The notes under the pieces: model-generated | Databases searched by the model: none | What the model was told of the DNA's origin: nothing | The model's input: only the letters and a program-made list of their open reading frames with translations | Position numbers and translations under genes: made by a program | NCBI GenBank assembly: GCA_913061145.1 | Contig: CAJXUQ010000016.1 | Span: 1 to 64,000 of the forward strand | Direction: 5' to 3' | DNA length: 64,000 nt | Source: an uncultured Haliea sp. | GTDB taxonomy: Bacteria > Pseudomonadota > Gammaproteobacteria > Pseudomonadales > Halieaceae | Part shown: piece by piece, positions 18,414 through 27,573 of the stretch | Layout of the letters: each line of letters begins with the position of its first letter | Numbering within the stretch: position 1 is the first letter of the stretch

Positions 18414-18490
18414 CGGGGCGTAGCGCAGCCTGGTAGCGCACCACACTGGGGGTGTGGTGGTCGCAGGTTCAAATCCTGCCGTCCCGACCA
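18414..18490 (+). tRNA. tRNA-Pro (anticodon GGG)
   Basis: CGGGGCGTAGCGCAGCCTGGTAGCGCACCACACTGGGGGTGTGGTGGTCGCAGGTTCAAATCCTGCCGTCCCGACCA; cloverleaf with encoded CCA. Confidence 0.96.
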
Positions 18491-18496
18491 ATTACC
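18477..18496 (+). repeat. attL core: tRNA-Pro 3' end TGCCGTCCCGACCAATTACC
   Basis: Matches 27555-27573 with a one-base gap. Confidence 0.78.
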
Positions 18497-18524
18497 CATC
18501 CGACAACATCCGCAAACGTCCGCA

Positions 18525-18549
18525 AAGCCCTGTAAATCAGGGCTTTTTT
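18525..18549 (+). terminator. Intrinsic terminator inside the element, downstream of tRNA-Pro
   Basis: AAGCCCTG-TAAAT-CAGGGCTTTTTT. Confidence 0.8.
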
Positions 18550-18574
18550 GTCTATACTCATTCCATACCAGTCC

Positions 18575-18654
18575 GGGGGTATCCGGCGACATACCCCCAA
18601 AATTGGGGGTAATTCTGGGGGTATTTTGCATGCCCCCAAGTGCGATACCCCCAA
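18575..18654. repeat. Cluster of GGGGGTA repeats in both orientations (candidate integrase arm sites, left end)
   Basis: GGGGGTA at 18575, 18605, 18617 and TACCCCC at 18592 and 18646. Confidence 0.6.
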
Positions 18655-18683
18655 ATCGGCATATCCCCAGTGGGAGAGCAGGT

Positions 18684-19916
18684 ATGGCAAAGCTGACAGC
18701 AACCGAGGTGAAACAGGCCAAGCCGACGGAGAAGCCGCGCAAGCTGGCGGACGGGGGCGGGCTGTTCCTGTTGATCAAACCTGCTGGCGGCAAGCTGTGG
18801 CATTACAAGTACCGCTTTGCCGGTAAGGAGAAGTTGTTGTCACTGGGGGTGTACCCGGATGTGAGCCTGGCGACGGCACGCAAGCGCCACCAGATAGCAC
18901 GCGACAAGCTGGCGGATGGCATCGACCCCGGCAATCAGCGCAAGGTGGAGAAGCTGACCCGACACTTGGCGTCGGCAAACAGTTTCGAGGCCGTGGCACG
19001 CGAGTGGTTCAACCAGGTGATGCCCACTAAATCAGCCAGCTACCGTGACCGCACTGGCCGCATTCTGGAAAAAGACCTGTATCCGCCGCTAGGCTCCCGC
19101 CCCATTGCATCCATTACCGCGCCTGAGCTGCTGGCGGCATTGCGCCGTGTTGAGAGCAGGGGTGCGTATGACATTGCTCACCGTGCCAAGCAAACTGCCG
19201 GGCAGGTATTCCGATTCGCTGTTGCCACTGGCCGGGCTGAGCGTGACCCTTCCGCCGACCTGAAAGGCGCACTAACCCCCAAGCGTGCCAAAAAACACCA
19301 CGCTGCAATCACTGACCCTGCTGGTGTCGGCAGGCTGCTGGTGGCAATGGATAACTTTGAAGGTACGCCGGTAGTGAAGGCTGCGCTGCTGTTGTCCCCA
19401 CTGCTGTTCCAGCGCCCCGGAGAGATTCGCGCAATGGAGTGGGCAGAAATCAACTGGGACGCCGCGCAGTGGGAGATACCCGCAGAGAAGATGAAGATGC
19501 GCCTGCCCCATGTTGTGCCGCTATGCAATCAGGCGTTAGAGCTGATACGCGAGCTGCAACCGCTGACCGGCCGGGGGCGGTATGTATTCCCCAGCGCGAG
19601 AGGTGCCAGCCGCTGTATGTCTGATAACGCTGTCAGAATTGCACTGCGCACTATTGGCTACGACAACGACACCATGACACCGCACGGTTTCCGAGCAATG
19701 GCGCGCACGCTGTTGGATGAAACGCTGGGATACCGCGTGGATTGGATAGAGCACCAGCTTGCCCACGCAGTGAAGGATGCCAACGGCAGAGCCTACAACC
19801 GCACCAGCCACCTAGAGAACCGACGGGGCATGATGCAGGGCTGGGCGGATTACCTGGATAGTTTGAAGGCCCAAGCAAAGGCCGGAAATGTGATTACCGC
19901 TCAGTTTAGGAAATAG
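18684..19916 (+). CDS. int: Tyrosine recombinase / P4-type integrase
   Basis: [66 protein letters not shown]; catalytic [11 protein letters not shown]; next to tRNA. Confidence 0.96.
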
Positions 19917-19984
19917 GCATAGGGCATCGCGATTTACCACTTCGTTCAGATTCGTTCGGGCGGACTGCATTTAATAATTTACGG

Positions 19985-20371
19985 ATGAGGAAGGATAAGA
20001 ATATGAGCAGTTGGAAAGCACCAAGCTTCATGTTGCTTTGGGATATGCAACCTATAGGTAAAGTACAGGTCGGCTTTTTTCAAACACCCGAATACTCAAA
20101 GCCTGAATACTATTCGTTGAAACACACAGACGACCTAGTAGCGATTACGAAGATTATTGAAGAAAACATCACTGTTATTGATCTGAATACTAGGAAAGAG
20201 GCAAGTGATTATGCGGAGAGTGCAAACCTCGCCTTCATTGGCGGCAGAAGCGACTATGACAATTATTGGTCTTACAGGTTTAGAGCTACAGTTCACGGTA
20301 CCCCCGATGATATTTGGATGACCGATTTAGTGAACGGAAAGCTAACTGGGCTTTTACGCAGTTATAGCTAG
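19985..20371 (+). CDS. Hypothetical island protein (128 aa; start may be M at MSSWKAP)
   Basis: ORF with AT-richer composition, within element; no family recognised. Confidence 0.6.
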   Translation: MRKDKNMSSWKAPSFMLLWDMQPIGKVQVGFFQTPEYSKPEYYSLKHTDDLVAITKIIEENITVIDLNTRKEASDYAESANLAFIGGRSDYDNYWSYRFRATVHGTPDDIWMTDLVNGKLTGLLRSYS

Positions 20372-20405
20372 CAGGTGTTTTCACCGCCAACCACGATACT
20401 GTAAA

Positions 20406-20462
20406 TTGCAGCGCCTAGGATGGCCCCCGAAAAGCCGCGACCCTGGCGGCCTGGCGCTGCAA
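20406..20462. other. Structured intergenic element: 10-bp perfect inverted repeat TTGCAGCGCC...GGCGCTGCAA with inner GCCGC/GCGGC stem
   Basis: Inverted repeats read directly; no T-tract. Confidence 0.5.
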
Positions 20463-20496
20463 CCTTACACCAAGGGATGCACTGAGGGAGGCATGT

Positions 20497-21345
20497 ATGG
20501 CGGAGAAGCCTGCAAACTGGTACCTGTTCGACTCAGATTTATTGGCCCAGCGTCGTGAAGACCTCAAGAATGAATCCGACGACGCGCTGGAGGAAGCGGT
20601 AATGGATGGCAATCAGTGTGAGACGCATTATGCGTTTCAGCTGATCGCGCTTGGGGCTGTCGAGCCAAATGTTTTTGGTTCCTCCGAGTGGCTTGCAGAA
20701 GTACAGGAGCGTTTTAAAAGACCTGACGATACTCCAGTGCAACTATCTCTTTTGTTAGATGCTGCTCCGGCCCTTGGATTTACAGAAGACCCGCCTGAGA
20801 TAGAGCCAGAAACGGAGCCGAACCTAGTGGGCAACGGTCCACAGGAAGCACTATCTGGATTGAACGAACAATGGAACACCTTGCGTGGGGGGCAAAGCCA
20901 TGAGTTACGCGAGCTTATGAATAAAGTCCCCAACTTCCATAATTTAACGACCGCCCAAGCTTTCATGAATAATGTACTGGAATTCGGCGAATATCCAACG
21001 CCCGAGATACTACTGGCTATTGCCAAGGCATTTGAACTTTACTTTGTCGCTGCGGGTGCTCTGACTCTTGAGGAGGTATTTTTTGGGCGACCCGTGAAGC
21101 GTGCCGGAAATTTCGCAAAGCGTTCAAAGCGGGAACAACGCTACCTGATATTTCACGATACCGTTCGACGAGAGCGGGCAATCTCTGAAGTGCTCGAAAA
21201 GCCATGTGCATTACAGCCAATGGCGGAATATTTCTTGCGCCAAGAGCGTGAAGACTTTGGCAAGGGCTACACCGACTCTGACACTTTTTTGCGCGGTTAT
21301 CGTGAATGGAAAGCTAAGCACCCGGACCTAGCGCCGGACGATTAA
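20497..21345 (+). CDS. Hypothetical island protein (282 aa)
   Basis: ORF with ATG and nearby AGGGAGG; within element. Confidence 0.7.
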   Translation: MAEKPANWYLFDSDLLAQRREDLKNESDDALEEAVMDGNQCETHYAFQLIALGAVEPNVFGSSEWLAEVQERFKRPDDTPVQLSLLLDAAPALGFTEDPPEIEPETEPNLVGNGPQEALSGLNEQWNTLRGGQSHELRELMNKVPNFHNLTTAQAFMNNVLEFGEYPTPEILLAIAKAFELYFVAAGALTLEEVFFGRPVKRAGNFAKRSKREQRYLIFHDTVRRERAISEVLEKPCALQPMAEYFLRQEREDFGKGYTDSDTFLRGYREWKAKHPDLAPDD

Positions 21346-21427
21346 CCCGCTTATTTCTCCTCACGGTTGGCAGGCGAAGGCTAGTAGATTTCCATGCATC
21401 CAACAAAGCCCAGGGAGGGCCGGAAGC

Positions 21428-21649
21428 ATGGCAACACAACCGAACAACTCCACCACCTTACTGCGCTTGCCGGAAGTCGAAAGCGCGACCGGCAAAAAGC
21501 GCAGTGCAATCTACGCTGAAATTTCGGCAGGAACCTTTCCGGCACCAGTGAAGATAGGTGCCCGCGCATCCGCATGGGTGGCTGCTGAGGTGCAATCCTG
21601 GATAGCGTCCCGTATCGCTGAGCGTGACCAAGCGAAGGGGGCCGTATGA
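21428..21649 (+). CDS. alpA: AlpA-family regulatory protein
   Basis: LLRLPEVESATGKKRSAIYAEISAGTFPAPVKIGARASAWVAAEVQSWIASRIAERD is a typical AlpA MerR-like HTH. Confidence 0.92.
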   Translation: MATQPNNSTTLLRLPEVESATGKKRSAIYAEISAGTFPAPVKIGARASAWVAAEVQSWIASRIAERDQAKGAV

Positions 21650-21864
21650 GCTTGCGTAAGGCAATCAACGATAAATGCCGCGAATGTATCTATGACCCAA
21701 TGGCAGAGGGTAACTGGCGGCAGCAAATCAGCGCGTGTACGTCCCCAAATTGCCCGCTTTACGCTCACCGTCCCACCAGCCAAGGGTATGCCGCTAATCG
21801 CGCTAATTCGGTCGATTCTGGGGCCAAATTGGACGCTTTGCAGGTGGTGGAGGTGGTCAGATGA
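21646..21864 (+). CDS. Small Cys-motif phage/island protein (CRECIYD...CTSPNCPLYAHRP)
   Basis: Overlaps alpA stop by 4 nt; possible zinc-binding Cys pattern. Confidence 0.7.
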   Translation: MSLRKAINDKCRECIYDPMAEGNWRQQISACTSPNCPLYAHRPTSQGYAANRANSVDSGAKLDALQVVEVVR

Positions 21865-22100
21865 GCGAGGGAGAAGCCAGCGCCCCGGCACAGGGCGCTA
21901 ACCAGTACAGCCACGGCAAGTTTACCTACGTTTTCGAGGCGCGTCACACAACGACAGTGCATGTTGCCGTTTCTGCGGATAGTGAGCAGGAAGCACGCCA
22001 GCGCATCATGAACGGCGACCCGCTAGTGGAGCTTTACGATAGCGAGCCGGACAAGCTGGAGCTGATACTTCGGCACAGTGGTGGCGAGCATGGGGCGTAG
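21861..22100 (+). CDS. Hypothetical island protein (79 aa)
   Basis: ATGA overlap with upstream gene. Confidence 0.6.
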   Translation: MSEGEASAPAQGANQYSHGKFTYVFEARHTTTVHVAVSADSEQEARQRIMNGDPLVELYDSEPDKLELILRHSGGEHGA

Positions 22101-22623
22101 TTACACCAAATCAAAGGGGCGTGCGGGTAGTGGAGCGGGTCATGGTGCGCTGCCCCGTGTGGTGTGGGAGCACCCAAGTTATTGCAACCTGTCTGGCGCT
22201 GGCGCAAAGCTGCTGATGGACTTCGCCTGTCAATTCAACGGGCACAACAACGGCGACCTGCAAGCCGCATACTCGGTATTGAGCAAGCGAGGGTGGCGGT
22301 CACGCCAAACCATTAGCCGGGCCGTCGCGGAGTTATTGAGTGCGGAATTGATAGTAAAAACACGTGAGGGCAAGTTTACCAATCCCGGCGGGCAATGTGC
22401 CCTGTACGCTCTGGCATGGATACAGATACACGATTGCGAGGGTAAGTTAGAGGTGCCGCCGACAAGTAAGCCGCCGAGGCAATTCTCATTGGAAGCTATC
22501 AAAACACCCAGTCCAGAACATGGACTAGGCTCGGTCCATAGACGGGGACGACAGCGTGCAAGGGACGGTTCTGGCAGGTACCAGTCGGTCCATAAACGGG
22601 TACGATTGGTGGATACCGCTTAG
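22078..22623 (+). CDS. HTH protein, possible replication initiator-like
   Basis: Winged-helix-like region KRGWRSRQTISRAVAELLSAELIVKTREGKFTNPGGQCALYALAW; 3' end of gene and adjacent DNA contain iteron-like repeats. Confidence 0.6.
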   Translation: MVASMGRSYTKSKGRAGSGAGHGALPRVVWEHPSYCNLSGAGAKLLMDFACQFNGHNNGDLQAAYSVLSKRGWRSRQTISRAVAELLSAELIVKTREGKFTNPGGQCALYALAWIQIHDCEGKLEVPPTSKPPRQFSLEAIKTPSPEHGLGSVHRRGRQRARDGSGRYQSVHKRVRLVDTA

Positions 22624-22637
22624 TCCATAACGTGGAC
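22511..22637 (+). repeat. Four iteron-like imperfect palindromes GTCCAtaaacgTGGAC
   Basis: GTCCAGAACATGGAC (22511), GTCCATAGACGGGGAC (22534), GTCCATAAACGGGTAC (22588), GTCCATAACGTGGAC (22623), followed by AT-rich TTTATATATTTA. Confidence 0.6.
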
Positions 22638-22775
22638 GCCTTTATATATTTACCAAGGGGTTACCCTTTTCAATGGAGCTGCAAAGCAGTCAATGGCAAG
22701 CGAGCTGGTGCAGAATTGAGTCGCGTTCCGCCGTAAATTCTGCCGGGGAAACCCTGGCACAGGAGAGTTGAGACT

Positions 22776-22970
22776 ACGAGCACTAACCCCCGCCGCCTAC
22801 GAAACCCGGAGCGCCTGATTGTATCTGTGGAGTCGGTAACCGTTGCCGCCGTGGATAGAGTCATGGCGCAGGGCAGTCACCACCAGCACCGCAACCGTTC
22901 GGAGTTCGTGCGCCTGGCTATTGAGCGTGAGTTAGTGCGCTGTCAGAGTGATAATTTTCAGAAGCCATAG
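22776..22970 (+). CDS. Ribbon-helix-helix (CopG-like) protein with non-canonical or uncertain start; absent from ORF track
   Basis: TSTNPRRLRNPERLIVSVESVTVAAVDRVMAQGSHHQHRNRSEFVRLAIERELVRCQSDNFQKP*; no ATG/TTG in frame before the beta-strand; in-frame GTG only at 22827. Confidence 0.5.
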   Translation, partial: TSTNPRRLRNPERLIVSVESVTVAAVDRVMAQGSHHQHRNRSEFVRLAIERELVRCQSDNFQKP

Positions 22971-23158
22971 AAGGCTTAGAGTGATGATTTTCTCATCCCA
23001 TAAAAAGGGAGTTACGCGGGACGGGTACTTGGGGACATCTTTCAAGGTATGCAACGCTCCTAGACGCGGTACTAATCTTAGAAAATCTGTTTAATTCCAT
23101 AAAGAGCGTCACCGTTTCTTCAATCGCCACCTTGTTACCCTGAAGGATCTGGTTGTCA

Positions 23159-23611
23159 CTACAAACTGTTTGTAGCAGAAACCAAGACGGAGCGGCGGCT
23201 CCAGATGCCAGCCTCTTCAAGCAATTTTTCCGATTTTTTCTCGATTTCCGCGGCTTTTTTGAAAGCGCTTGTTATTTCATAGTTGTCGCTCTTAATGTCT
23301 AGGAATTGAGATAGCTCTTTTAAGTCTGCTTTTAAGAAAAGGATTTGCATTCTGACATTGTGAAGCTTTCCGTGTAGGTTTTCAGCTTCCTCCAGCTTCT
23401 CAGGTCTATCATCCTGCATCAGGATTATCCTAAGCTCGCGTGCACTAATTGCCAGTTGGATTTCGTAGTGATCTAGTCGTGCTGCAATTTCATAAATCCG
23501 CTTCAATGCTGCTGTTCGTTCAATAGACTGAGTTCTGAAGCCCTTCAATTGAAAATAAACTACGGTGCCTAGAAGGACCGCGAGCAGAGCGAAATTTAGT
23601 TCTGTATTCAT
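23159..23611 (-). CDS. Hypothetical membrane-anchored helical protein (150 aa)
   Basis: N-terminal TM followed by Leu/Glu/Lys-rich helices. Confidence 0.65.
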   Translation of the reverse strand: MNTELNFALLAVLLGTVVYFQLKGFRTQSIERTAALKRIYEIAARLDHYEIQLAISARELRIILMQDDRPEKLEEAENLHGKLHNVRMQILFLKADLKELSQFLDIKSDNYEITSAFKKAAEIEKKSEKLLEEAGIWSRRSVLVSATNSL

Positions 23612-23687
23612 GGCAAGTCTTTATCCGCGTGATCCCTCGGTCGGGGGCAATATTTTTCTATCAAGATGCTAGACGCACGGGCGGAAA

Positions 23688-24374
23688 TCATAGGCGGCCC
23701 GGCTTGACCTCAAAGAAGTCTACATTTTCAGCCTCGACGTTGTAGCGACACCGATAGATATAGTTTTCCCATGCGCCGAAGCCATTCTGTAACTGCAAAC
23801 TGTCCCCTGAGTAAACAAAAGTATTTTTCTTCTCTGTTGCACTAACACGTGAGAACTTCGGCTGAAGCCAGCTATCCGTCCAACGAAAATCATATTTTGC
23901 CTGATTCTCAATTTGCGGCTGGCAAGACAGGATCGCCCTGAGTGAATGGCGCTCTGCCCAGCACTGCCAGTCAGTCTTGCACTTAGCCTCCTCTTTAGCA
24001 CTCGCTAACCTGCGTCCCTCAATTTCTGCTCGGGTTGCTTCCTCTCGCGCAAGGCGCTCCGCCTTTTCTGCTTTCCCTCCGGCTATGCGCTCAGCTTTTT
24101 TGGCCTCGTACTCCGCACTCTGCGCCTGGCTTCGTTTGTTTTCGGTAGTTATTGCGACGAACAACGTGCCCCCTACCAAAACAAAGGGCAGGAGAATGAT
24201 TACTGATCCTCGAAGCAATCTGCGTAACCAGCGTGGAATACCCCCTGCACTCCGTCCGATGCGCTTGGCATCTTCAGCTTTATTGCTAGGCTCACCAATC
24301 CCGAGGCAGTCTCGGCAAAGGCTGCCCGGTTTATCGAGAGGCGCGCCACAGTTGGGACAATATTTGTTTTGCAT
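23688..24374 (-). CDS. Zinc-ribbon membrane protein (228 aa)
   Basis: CPNCGAPLDKPGSLCRDC zinc ribbon, one TM (VIILLPFVLVGGTLFVAI), coiled coil. Confidence 0.75.
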   Translation of the reverse strand: MQNKYCPNCGAPLDKPGSLCRDCLGIGEPSNKAEDAKRIGRSAGGIPRWLRRLLRGSVIILLPFVLVGGTLFVAITTENKRSQAQSAEYEAKKAERIAGGKAEKAERLAREEATRAEIEGRRLASAKEEAKCKTDWQCWAERHSLRAILSCQPQIENQAKYDFRWTDSWLQPKFSRVSATEKKNTFVYSGDSLQLQNGFGAWENYIYRCRYNVEAENVDFFEVKPGRL

Positions 24375-24386
24375 AGCGGTGCTTCT

Positions 24387-24533
24387 CTAGCCCCACCGCT
24401 CCATCACCAGTACAGCCGCCCCGAAGCCCAGCAGAGCGCCCGGCAGGAACAGCCACGCGATGAGCTTGTGATGGGAGCGCCGGTCAGCGGCTTTCTGGCG
24501 TATCTGAGCGGGCCTGTTGTCGGCTGGTTTCAT
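24387..24533 (-). CDS. Small membrane protein, paralogue A (MKPADNRPAQIRQKAADRRSHHKLIAWLFLPGALLGFGAAVLVMERWG)
   Basis: Shares N-terminal MKPxDxRPxQIRxxAADR and upstream sequence with 26552-26719. Confidence 0.65.
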   Translation of the reverse strand: MKPADNRPAQIRQKAADRRSHHKLIAWLFLPGALLGFGAAVLVMERWG

Positions 24534-24830
24534 GGTTTGAGTGTAGCACCAGCATAGTCCACTGCCGGGGGGGGCGTCGAAAGTCATTTGGCGTCATCTC
24601 GGGACACCGCGACCAACCGTAAATCCGCGCATCCACAATTCAGATAATGGACTGGAGGGGGGCGGTTCAGAGGTGGAATGCTATCGAACCGGACACCGCG
24701 CCGGTAATCTCCGCGACATTAATTTGTACTTTTTCGTGCCTGCTACCCGGCAGGGGTGGGTAAAAGTCAAAGGGGCTTCACCGGCAAGACCGCGTGGGTA
24801 CCCTACCTGAAATCAAATTGAGTATTCCCT

Positions 24831-25152
24831 TTGAAAAAATCCACCGCACCAAAGCACTTGAGTACCGAGGCGCGGAGCTGGTGGGATCGCCTGCTGACCG
24901 AGTACGGAATAACCGATGATGCTGGCTTGCTGCTACTGCAAACCGCCCTGGACATTCGACCGGATGCGCGGCTGCCAGAAGGCTGTCAGCGATGACGGGG
25001 CTATGGTTAAAGACCGCTTCGACCAGTTGAAGCCGCACCCGCTGCTGGCCACTGAGCGCGATTCAAGGGCACAGATGCTGTTTGCACTGAAGGCCCTGAA
25101 CCTTGACGTTGAGCCGCTGCGGGATAGCCCCGGCAGGCCGGGAGGACTGTAA
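24831..25152 (+). pseudogene. terS: P27-family phage terminase small subunit, frameshifted near 24951-24955
   Basis: Frame 1 KKSTAPKHLSTEARSWWDRLLTEYGITDDAGLLLLQTALD continues in +1 frame as FDRMRGCQKAVSDDGAMVKDRFDQLKPHPLLATERDSRAQMLFALKALNLDVEPLRDSPGRPGGL, matching the P27 TerS pattern. Confidence 0.8.
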
Positions 25153-25361
25153 TGCCCACCAAACGACGCCGTACAAGCCGCCAGAGGGATGCAGGACTAT
25201 CTCTACAGGTTAGGGCATTGTTTGTTGTTGGCTGCGGCTGGCAGTCCTACGGTGAGGCTGAGGCGCAAAGGCTGTGGAATGAGCATGGCCAGGACTATCT
25301 GCGCCTGCACCCTGATCCCACCTGTTTTGCCCTACTGCAACTTGGCGAGCCTGAAGGCTGA
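25152..25361 (+). CDS. Small basic hypothetical protein coupled to terS (69 aa)
   Basis: TAATG overlap with the terS stop. Confidence 0.5.
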   Translation: MPTKRRRTSRQRDAGLSLQVRALFVVGCGWQSYGEAEAQRLWNEHGQDYLRLHPDPTCFALLQLGEPEG

Positions 25362-25601
25362 TCCCTGCTAGTACCCATAAGGTGAGGCACAATGTCGACA
25401 AGGGGCATTCCAATCCCTTTGCGCGCAATGAGAAACGACGAGTTGAGCGCCACCTTAGAATTACGGCAAGCTCCGCATCGTCGGCCACGGTAGCGCATGT
25501 CACCCCACGAGCGTGAATTGCCTTGCTACCCTTGAAGGGTAGCGCCTGATTGAGGTGGGCGCTATGCTCATCGGTGTGGCATCCACGGAAGGAAAATAAC
25601 A

Positions 25602-26453
25602 ATGGGGAAGTGCAGGTATTGCGGCAAGCCAGCGGGCTTTTTTAAAAAGGCACACAAGCATTGTGAAGTGGTTGCCGCACAGAAACACCGGGAGCGCGAT
25701 AATCAGCGCCAGAGGATAAGCGAGCTGTTTGAGAGCGCGATACGGGGTGATATTGACGTAAACGGCGTATTTTCTGAGGTGGCCAATTACGCGGCGAGTA
25801 AATCCATTAAGCTCGATGCCCTGCCTAGTCTCGCTGCGAGCGCGTGGGAAGATTCCGTGCAAGTTGCTTTGGAGGACGACCTTCTTAGTGAAGAGGAAGA
25901 GAAAGTACTTTCTGAGTTGGCGGAGATGTTCAAGCTGTCCAAGTATCAGCTAGATAAAAACGGCGCTCAAACAACGTTGGTCAAGGCAGCGACCCTGCGT
26001 GATCTAATGAAAGGTGAAATCCCCCAGCGAATCAAGGTTCAAGGAAACTTGCCGTTCAATTTCCAGAAAACCGAGAAATTGATATGGGTTTTCCAGGATG
26101 TATCGTACTTTGAGCAGAAAAAGCGAACCCAGTATGTCGGTGGATCTCAGGGCGTTAGCCTCCGTGTTGCCAAAGGCGTTTACTATCGGATGGGTTCTTT
26201 CAAGGGGCACAAGGTAGAATCTCACGAAACGATCCACGCCGATACTGGCTTGATGGGCGTAACCAATAAGCACATTTACTTTTCTGGAGCAACAAAGAGC
26301 TTTCGTGTACGCCTAGACAAAATTGTTTCTTTCGAGCCATTTTCCGACGGGATAGGTATCCAGAGAGACGCTGCAACGGCAAAACCGCAACAGTTTAAAA
26401 CAGGAGACGGTTGGTTTACCTACAATCTGGTGATGAACGCCTCGCAGCTGTAG
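25602..26453 (+). CDS. Zinc-ribbon / TerB-like / bacterial PH-like domain protein (283 aa)
   Basis: MGKCRYCGKPAGFFKKAHKHC; VALEDDLLSEEEEKVLSELAEMFKLS (TerB-like); GVTNKHIYFSGATKSFRVRLDKIVSFEPFSDGIGI (PH-like). Confidence 0.75.
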   Translation: MGKCRYCGKPAGFFKKAHKHCEVVAAQKHRERDNQRQRISELFESAIRGDIDVNGVFSEVANYAASKSIKLDALPSLAASAWEDSVQVALEDDLLSEEEEKVLSELAEMFKLSKYQLDKNGAQTTLVKAATLRDLMKGEIPQRIKVQGNLPFNFQKTEKLIWVFQDVSYFEQKKRTQYVGGSQGVSLRVAKGVYYRMGSFKGHKVESHETIHADTGLMGVTNKHIYFSGATKSFRVRLDKIVSFEPFSDGIGIQRDAATAKPQQFKTGDGWFTYNLVMNASQL

Positions 26454-26551
26454 GTGGGCATAAAGGAGTCTGCGGTCACAATGCACTCCGTTAGCCTCAT
26501 TCACCGGCCTCGACCAACAGGTCGCCCAAGCGCGGGCTTTTTTGTGTCTGG

Positions 26552-26719
26552 CTACCTGATCCCCAGCGCGACCACCGTAACGGCCACCGCAGCGACCACC
26601 AGCGTCATGAAGCCCACCAGGGTATACCGTGCCCGCCTGTACCCCCGCTGTGCCCTGACAACCCTGTCTGCGGCTTCCCGGCGTATCTGGTTGGGCCTGT
26701 CTGTGTCGAGTGGTTTCAT
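26552..26719 (-). CDS. Small membrane protein, paralogue B (MKPLDTDRPNQIRREAADRVVRAQRGYRRARYTLVGFMTLVVAAVAVTVVALGIR)
   Basis: Paralogous to 24387-24533 including upstream GCTACACTCA. Confidence 0.65.
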   Translation of the reverse strand: MKPLDTDRPNQIRREAADRVVRAQRGYRRARYTLVGFMTLVVAAVAVTVVALGIR

Positions 26720-26738
26720 GCTGTGAGTGTAGCGGGCA

Positions 26739-26850
26739 ATGGTGGCCGCGAACATGGCGAACCTTGAGCAAGGAGCCAACCAGCATTCAGCCTCTGCAAA
26801 TTTGCAGACCCAGACCCGCGCCAAAGCAGCCGAACTATTCAACGTGTCTA
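26739..26850 (+). pseudogene. Fragment of a ParB/DNA-methylase-associated HTH protein
   Basis: MVAANMANLEQGANQHSASANLQTQTRAKAAELFNVS resembles the conserved (A)NLxxG...SANLQ...QAxAAxLLNVS segment; truncated on both sides. Confidence 0.5.
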
Positions 26851-27471
26851 AAGGTACTCCCAGACAGTTTGACGCTACGGGGGCGAGGAGGCGTAAGTCC
26901 CTGCTATGTATGAAATTTTTTACTATGTGGTTGCGTTGTTTATGCGAATGGCGCGCATGAACCACCACCCCCCACCAGTGCCGAAAAACTGCCGTAATTC
27001 ACGATTCCGCGCCCCCGTGCGGCTGGTGCTGGGGAGTACCTTTGTGCAGACATAAACAACAACCAGGCACCCGGATGAACGTGTCTAGCAGAATGCCGCG
27101 ACTCTGCGCCCCCGCATGGCGAAAGTCTTTCGGAGTACCTTTATGCGTTTCAGGTTTTATAAGGTTCTACCCCACCCCCCGGTTAGGTTCTTTCTGGCTA
27201 TCTGTGAGATACGGGTGGCGGGCTGCGCGCATTCTCGGTATTGGCGGGCATTTTCTGGCGGGTGGGTTGTTGATGATGATGTATTCATCGGCTGACAGTG
27301 GGGGGTATGCAAATACCTTGAGCGTTCAGGCCGGGCACCGTCGGGGGAGGCACACTTCTACGCCTCCAAAATGGGAAGCGCAGGGCTATGGCAGAGATAT
27401 ATTTGTGTTAAGGAATGCTAAGGTTGCGCCCGCCGACCGGCTGGCGTGAAAAGGTAGTGAAAAAAAGAATT

Positions 27472-27490
27472 GGGGGTATTTTTGGGGGTA
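27472..27490 (+). repeat. Two GGGGGTA repeats (candidate integrase arm sites, right end)
   Basis: AATTGGGGGTATTTTTGGGGGTACTTTTG at 27469-27497 mirrors AATTGGGGGTAATTCTGGGGGTATTTTG at 18601-18628 with the same 12-nt periodicity. Confidence 0.6.
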
Positions 27491-27554
27491 CTTTTGATTA
27501 TTTTCGCTGTAGGAAATCAATTAAAACAGTGAGTTACATATACTATTCGGGCGG

Positions 27555-27573
27555 TGCCGTCCGACCAATTACC
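27555..27573 (+). repeat. attR core TGCCGTCCGACCAATTACC
   Basis: Duplicate of tRNA-Pro 3' end plus flank. Confidence 0.78.

Follow-up and report, generated by a model that had tools for sequence, protein, structure and literature searches.

A 9-kb island at tRNA-Pro in a marine Haliea-type bacterium resembles AlpA-type phage satellites and carries a predicted iteron-type replicon

The satellite phiAH14b, found in an Antarctic Pseudomonas strain, depends on phiAH14a, is reported to be packaged into the capsids of this helper (KU708005; PMC4936722), and reportedly possesses neither a terminase nor structural genes of its own (PMC4936722). In PICMI, a satellite of the Vibrionaceae, expression of AlpA induces excision without any phage (PMC10803314), and in the Gram-negative phage-inducible chromosomal island (PICI) EcCICFT073, AlpA overexpression sets off induction and replication, for which int and pri are required (PMC6092414). 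Here we describe a small island in a 64,000-nt stretch of contig CAJXUQ010000016.1 from a marine Haliea-type bacterium; this whole stretch is referred to as the window, and all island coordinates are positions within it (Table 1). An original prediction, made from the sequence of the window, had proposed a PICI-like phage satellite inserted into a tRNA-Pro(GGG) gene. Our analysis indicates that the locus is probably an island of the phage-satellite type, integrated in the chromosome and akin to the AlpA-bearing satellites of Gram-negative bacteria.

The island spans about 9.08 kb from att site to att site. In a relative with a near-identical genome (G020), its two flanks are joined into one continuous sequence (flank identity 98-100%), and this uninterrupted junction establishes the island as a true insertion. 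The predicted target gene and the boundaries are thereby corroborated by the ARAGORN call, the perfect 13-bp repeat and the empty site alike. The empty site also implies either a recent gain of the island in the window's genome or its precise loss from G020. The GC content falls from about 60-65% outside to about 44-59% across most of the island.

Both the integrase and the AlpA assignments of the original prediction are upheld by Pfam. The integrase is 42% identical to phiAH14b Int and 38% identical to P4 Int, and the AlpA protein shares 44% identity with P4 Vis and 35% with phiAH14b AlpA. A sister island resides in Haliea alexandrii (NZ_RFLW01000001; L014/L059), inserted into a tRNA-Pro(CGG) gene at a different locus; it is 92% identical over the backbone and carries other cargo, its int-alpA gap being occupied by an unlike gene of 240 aa. 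Comparison of the two islands yields Ka/Ks values of 0.07 for int, 0.20 for alpA, 0.15 for the gene of the Cys-motif protein, 0.12 for rep, 0.09 for the RHH-like gene and 0.17 for m228. These six genes are under purifying selection, and the predicted RHH-like reading frame, conserved in the sister island, is consequently a genuine gene. The Ks values are uneven across the island: 0.06 for the 79-aa gene and m150, 0.14 for m228, 0.44 for rep and 0.81 for int. The chromosomal genes ihfA and merR of the same species pair differ by 0.55 and 0.74, respectively. As the values of the 79-aa gene, m150 and m228 are far below the chromosomal ones, these modules were exchanged horizontally well after the species split. 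Islands of this kind have thus moved between sites and between species. Gram-negative PICIs are characterised by att sites that prophages never use; related small elements are the only occupants of tRNA-Pro genes that we saw in the Halieaceae, the use of this site by prophages not having been surveyed. At the end of contig C22 of the window's own genome (60592-60734) lies a tRNA-Pro(CGG) gene; sister elements usually insert there, and a second related island may hide in this assembly gap.

RepA_N-type plasmid initiators and the O protein of phage lambda use iterons situated within their own genes. The original prediction of a helix-turn-helix/rep-like gene with iterons fits this scheme and stands. 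The initiator (177-181 aa across its family) matches O-like families weakly (phrog_678, 1.7e-4), and a profile built from 17 of its homologues retrieves RepA_N initiators of solved structure, namely 4pta (3.6e-4), 4pql, 5kbj and 4pt7. At the profile and sequence level, the replicon is therefore of the RepA_N/O type, with a winged-helix initiator and iterons inside its own gene. The four iterons are imperfectly palindromic 16-mers spaced 23-54-35 bp apart; exact 11-mer counting missed them and a spacing-aware test found them, with a four-site score of 52 out of 64 versus a codon-shuffle null with a mean of 43.4 and a maximum of 46. The same 23-54-35 spacing is kept in the homologues L060, L061, L066, L071, L081 and L090, and their iteron sequences differ (for instance, CACCAGAAACTGGTG in L060). 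Such constant geometry combined with diverging repeats is what would be expected from an initiator and an origin that co-evolve, and suggests that the protein contacts these sites. A Pseudomonas record, vB_Pae_U1, carries four perfect copies of GGTACAGAAACTGTAC at 22-54-35; L093 and L094 possess a 31-52-43 variant beyond the stop codon; and several of the more distant initiator homologues in other families have repeated palindromes at this position that are less clean. The conserved spacing provides a predicted origin that can be searched for and tested. The vB_Pae_U1 record itself (L111, PP003913.1, 16.2 kb) was deposited as a Pseudomonas phage. It contains an integrase, a cox-like gene and the initiator, has no annotated capsid or terminase, and is probably an integrative element or satellite rather than a phage.

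Defence genes are a known cargo of phage satellites. Relatives of the island are wide-spread, and the concern that it might exist only in this strain can be set aside: among 140 Halieaceae genomes, the integrase (E<1e-120) occurs in 33 copies in 24 genomes and the initiator in 14, and 19 of 369 genomes across the class, the window's own included, encode the initiator. The integrase relatives occupy tRNA-Pro (CGG, GGG), tmRNA, tRNA-Cys, -Met, -Val and other genes, int is closely followed by an AlpA-like gene in almost every one of them, and their cargo lies in the int-alpA gap and at the far end. This cargo includes PD-Lambda-1 in L060, a BsuBI/PstI restriction-modification system in L065, and type I restriction-modification-like genes, identified by eye, in several relatives, several of these at tmRNA. 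Replication modules have been exchanged as well, with Toprim plus DUF3987 in L064 and L070, DUF3631 in L080 and DUF5906 in L073. The element L063 of a sister species occupies the same tRNA-Pro(GGG) gene, shares the 282-aa cargo gene (58% identity), and encodes homologues of the phiAH14b primase (43%), helicase (36%, 22-596/600) and orf13; no other homology ties the family as closely to a demonstrated satellite. In another bacterial family, a 5.3-kb element (L137) with a 14-bp att at tRNA-Ser consists of int, alpA, rep and an intact terminase small subunit (TerS) gene. Collectively, the int-AlpA front forms a modular frame that holds either a phiAH14b-type primase-helicase, a PICMI-type DUF3987/DUF5906 gene or an iteron initiator, and our data would extend AlpA-type phage satellites to the Halieaceae.

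Three further sequences deserve mention in this context. The 13.9-kb "viral" contig IMGVR_UViG_2831348850_000001 (L181) is the same element as L079, located at tRNA-Cys in a Halieaceae genome, so that such elements are being filed as viruses. An environmental contig (L183, IMGVR_UViG_3300018079_000176) encodes a 57%-identical integrase, an AlpA-like gene, a primase-like open reading frame (ORF) and a 729-aa ORF that by eye resembles a GpA-type large terminase subunit (TerL); it is possibly a relative that has retained TerL. In the window's own genome, contig C14 (L097) starts with a partial integrase, followed by an AlpA-like gene, a primase-like ORF and then a type I-C-looking CRISPR-Cas operon with GAPRGARGLK-type repeats, placing CRISPR beside or inside an island.

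The predicted terS remnant is real: two pieces in different frames match phrog_83, and their alignment to an intact homologue in L093, an element from the same genus (phrog_83, 8.9e-12; PF05119, 6e-8), confirms the frameshift. Unbroken relatives, which the original prediction had proposed to look for, are thus at hand in L093 and L137. The stretch comprising terS and the 69-aa ORF is 75% identical to L093 over about 570 nt. In L093, the order of genes is a related initiator, prohead protease (PF04586), HK97 capsid (PF05065), intact terS and the 69-aa ORF; no TerL or portal was detected, but the contig ends just after the 69-aa ORF, so that a TerL gene may lie beyond it. Since the terS relatives stand beside protease and capsid genes there, the lineage of the window island may once have possessed a head module and lost it. 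The cassette lies between two imperfect direct repeats, one copy situated in the 24387-24587 ORF and the other in a copy of that ORF near 26550-26730. It is missing from the sister island, which contains neither terS nor capsid, and therefore represents a gain/loss cassette.

Partial head modules recur among the small integrative elements. L112 is a complete 8.6-kb element with a 14-bp att at tRNA-Arg, oriented in reverse, that carries int, a xis-like gene, a D5/DUF5906 primase, protease, capsid and TerS genes, with nothing recognisable as TerL or portal before its end. Comparable arrangements are found in L107, of which the right end lies at tRNA-Leu, and in L140, with rep, TerS and capsid genes. 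Altogether, L112, L093, L107, L109 and L140 combine an HK97 protease and/or capsid with TerS or HNH, and neither TerL nor portal was detected alongside these head genes; phrog_2 matched general ATPases (11 of 14 controls) and was not used as a test for TerL. A capsid homologue serving as a capsid redirector has a reported precedent in the Ccm protein of SaPIbov5 (PMC8569155). If they are real satellites, such elements would stand midway between the PICIs, which take over complete helper heads, and the cfPICIs, which produce heads themselves. A second small element of the window's own genome (L176, contig C2, about 189.7-198.7 kb, near tRNA-Arg(TCT)) has an integrase, excisionase-like, Cys-motif and initiator-like genes, an HK97 capsid and a portal (PF04860, 7e-81), with no TerL seen; it is possibly a satellite with another kind of partial head module.

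The homologies to AlpA-controlled satellites lend themselves to a model for the mobility of the window island. Infection by a helper phage would raise AlpA, and AlpA together with the tyrosine integrase would release the island from its tRNA-Pro(GGG) site. Replication would then start with the binding of the initiator to the four iterons in the 3' part of the initiator gene, with helicase and primase supplied by the host or the helper, because none is encoded by the island. Its DNA would be packaged in helper particles and re-integrate at a proline tRNA gene of the next cell. As the island's own TerS is frameshifted, packaging, if any, would depend on TerS from the helper or on a site of the cos/pac type, in the manner of PICMI or EcCICFT073, or else the island is becoming a relic.

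Several observations count against a satellite. No helper phage was found: Terminase_6N is absent from the window's own genome, where other TerL families were not checked, and from the five genomes searched, and the sole Phage_capsid match belongs to another small element. The terS gene is broken and the sister island lacks one. The replicon relies on an iteron initiator instead of a primase (Pri-Rep), its homology to O and RepA_N initiators exists at the profile level only, and an AlphaFold model of it, computed from the single sequence, was of unusably low quality (pLDDT 46). Tyrosine integrases are also paired with AlpA in islands that move otherwise, such as I55, which is transferred by a jumbo phage (PMC12595487). 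The frameshift, the absence of Terminase_6N from the genome, and the "membrane" ORF that lacks a coding signal would all suit a former satellite that lost its packaging and persists as vertically inherited cargo. Such an inert relic is unlikely in our view, as int, alpA, rep and the RHH-like gene are unbroken and evolve under constraint, the empty site in G020 reflects a recent gain or a precise loss, low-Ks modules were exchanged after the species split, and both PICMI and phiAH14b move without a terS of their own (PMC10803314, PMC4936722). Considerably less probable still is a generic tRNA/tmRNA integrative island with occasional or jumbo-phage transduction, like I23, I44 and I55 of Pseudomonas. 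I55-type islands do pair IntY with AlpA at tmRNA/tRNA genes in the absence of packaging genes (PMC12595487), and several Halieaceae relatives sit at tmRNA, mostly with type I restriction-modification-like genes, but a dedicated replicon whose iterons are conserved, the occurrence of terS within the lineage, the size of 9 kb and the primase-helicase homology to phiAH14b via L063 speak against this explanation.

The original prediction had named larger homologous islands with full structural modules as the finding that would turn the locus into a deleted prophage. No full prophage with the int-alpA-rep backbone was found, and the large integrase relatives carry restriction-modification-like or primase cargo and no phage modules; an ordinary deleted prophage was therefore rejected, but the protease and capsid genes adjoining the L093 relative leave a narrower version to be weighed. 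The terS and 69-aa pieces could be what is left of the protease-capsid-TerS module of a capsid-encoding satellite or prophage, given that they align to L093 with protease and HK97 capsid genes directly upstream and that a repeat flanks the cassette in the window island. We consider this doubtful: terS and capsid are both absent from the sister island, the gain of a partial cassette between repeats is equally possible, and no capsid remnant was found in the window island. Next to the favoured satellite-type island, we tentatively entertain the broader idea that these elements make up a group of gammaproteobacterial satellites, as yet unnamed, with an initiator-only replicon (a RepA_N/O-like protein and a four-iteron origin within or beside its gene) and a swappable packaging part (none, TerS only, or partial head), in which the window island has lost or is losing its partial head/TerS step. 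If this were true, a partial head (protease, capsid and TerS without TerL or portal) would impose a satellite shell on the packaging motor of the helper.

The cargo occupies two slots, the int-alpA gap and the region downstream of rep. The 128-aa ORF has no Pfam, PHROG or PADLOC match and no counterpart in related islands; the 282-aa gene has no named domain in the Pfam scan, and its homologues in L063, L079 and L081 occupy the int-side cargo region. For the 283-aa gene, the TerB/PH label of the original prediction is not accepted; its protein had no match in the phage search. The predicted small "membrane" ORF at 24387-24587 (66 aa) is likewise dismissed, since replacement changes outnumber silent ones relative to the sister and no constraint is evident. 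PADLOC found nothing convincing in the window cargo, and a PDC-S48 match of the 283-aa gene (E=0.008) was not trusted. The 79-aa ORF, originally left without identity, is now weakly Icd-like and P4-repressor-like; a DNA search of phages with the Cys/Icd region gave no match, and a homologue of the Cys-motif protein also exists in the second element of the same genome. The gene order given originally is right, except that the 69-aa ORF after terS was overlooked.

Table 1. Features of the island and its insertion site (positions in the 64,000-nt window)
Feature	Position	Strand	Remarks
tRNA-Pro(GGG), integration target	18414..18490	+	ARAGORN; uninterrupted in G020
attL, CCGACCAATTACC	18484..18496	+	Perfect 13-bp repeat; empty-site comparison
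Tyrosine integrase, 410 aa, P4/phiAH14b type	18684..19916	+	Arm-DNA-bind_3, Phage_int_M, Phage_integrase (Pfam)
128-aa ORF, cargo slot 1	19985..20371	+	No homologue found
282-aa cargo gene, int-alpA slot	20497..21345	+	Homologues in L063 (58%), L079, L081
AlpA/Vis-type regulator-excisionase	21428..21649	+	PF05930, 6e-16
Cys-motif small protein (CxxC...CxxxxCPLY)	21646..21864	+	Homologues in L059, L065, L092, L093
79-aa Icd-like/P4-repressor-like protein	21861..22100	+	NF033153, 1.7e-4 (below cut-off); phrog_1743
Replication initiator, RepA_N/O-like winged-helix profile	22078..22623	+	phrog_678 O-like; RepA_N profile matches
Predicted replication origin, four iterons	22508..22635	+	Starts 22508, 22531, 22585, 22620; overlaps initiator 3' end
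RHH-like small regulator, 47 aa from GTG	22827..22970	+	94% to sister; start uncertain
150-aa membrane-anchored coiled-coil-like accessory protein (m150)	23159..23611	-	93% in sister
228-aa zinc-ribbon/transmembrane accessory protein (m228)	23688..24374	-	89% in sister; zinc-ribbon matches below cut-off
Imperfect 71-bp direct repeat, left copy	24480..24547	.	80% identity to 26663-26733
terS pseudogene, P27-type terminase small subunit, frameshifted	24831..25149	+	Two pieces match phrog_83
69-aa ORF paired with terS	25152..25361	+	53% to the ORF that follows the unbroken terS of L093
283-aa cargo gene, zinc-ribbon-like start, weak TerB	25602..26453	+	TerB E=0.05, below cut-off
Imperfect 71-bp direct repeat, right copy	26663..26733	.	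Flanks terS cassette
attR, CCGACCAATTACC	27561..27573	+	Perfect 13-bp repeat; empty-site comparison

Compared with the described systems, the window island shares parts with each of them. With P4 it has a homologous integrase and Vis/AlpA and a weakly Icd/P4-repressor-like small gene in common, but it carries an iteron initiator; membership was rejected, as only Int and Vis match and no alpha, epsilon, cI, sid, delta or psu was found at E<0.1. A conjugative or mobilisable element was likewise rejected, since Pfam, PHROG and NCBIfam scans of the island proteins detected no relaxase or conjugation gene. The relatives L093, L108/L112, L140 and L109 resemble cfPICIs (reviewed in PMC11389934) in encoding HK97 capsid genes (and protease, TerS), whereas the window island has no capsid or protease (Pfam, PHROG) and the relatives examined have no TerL or portal beside the capsid. 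Like the Gram-negative PICIs (EcCICFT073 and its relatives, PMC6092414), some of which contain terS, the island presents an ordered integrase, master regulator (AlpA or MerR in PICIs, AlpA here), replication module and cargo, with no structural or lytic genes detected and the terS pseudogene as its sole packaging-class gene; it differs in its initiator with iterons in place of Pri-Rep, in its broken terS and in its 9.08 kb, below the approximately 12-15 kb of PICIs. PICMI (PMC10803314) is similarly small and likewise runs int - gene - alpA - replication gene; both families include defence cargo, and a working packaging gene is absent from both. Yet PICMI integrates at fis and encodes a DUF3987/DUF5906 primase, whereas the window island sits at tRNA-Pro, retains a terS remnant and lacks a primase, such genes being present in L064, L070 and L073. 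With phiAH14b, finally, it shares a homologous integrase and AlpA in the order int - cargo - alpA; the differences are the 16.8 kb of phiAH14b and its primase-helicase, present in L063, versus the iteron initiator and terS pseudogene here, where packaging would be assumed by analogy. Our limited search of the open-access literature found no named initiator-type satellite, which is not certain proof of novelty. The island departs from each named family in at least one defining feature that we tested and is therefore a variant outside them. What holds of the original prediction is hence the manner of working, supported by the tRNA insertion, the int-AlpA-replicon order, the homology to phiAH14b, the L137 element and the lack of structural genes, and not strict membership: this is probably an island of the phage-satellite type that would operate in the way of a PICI, PICMI or phiAH14b, without conforming to the full definition of any of the three.

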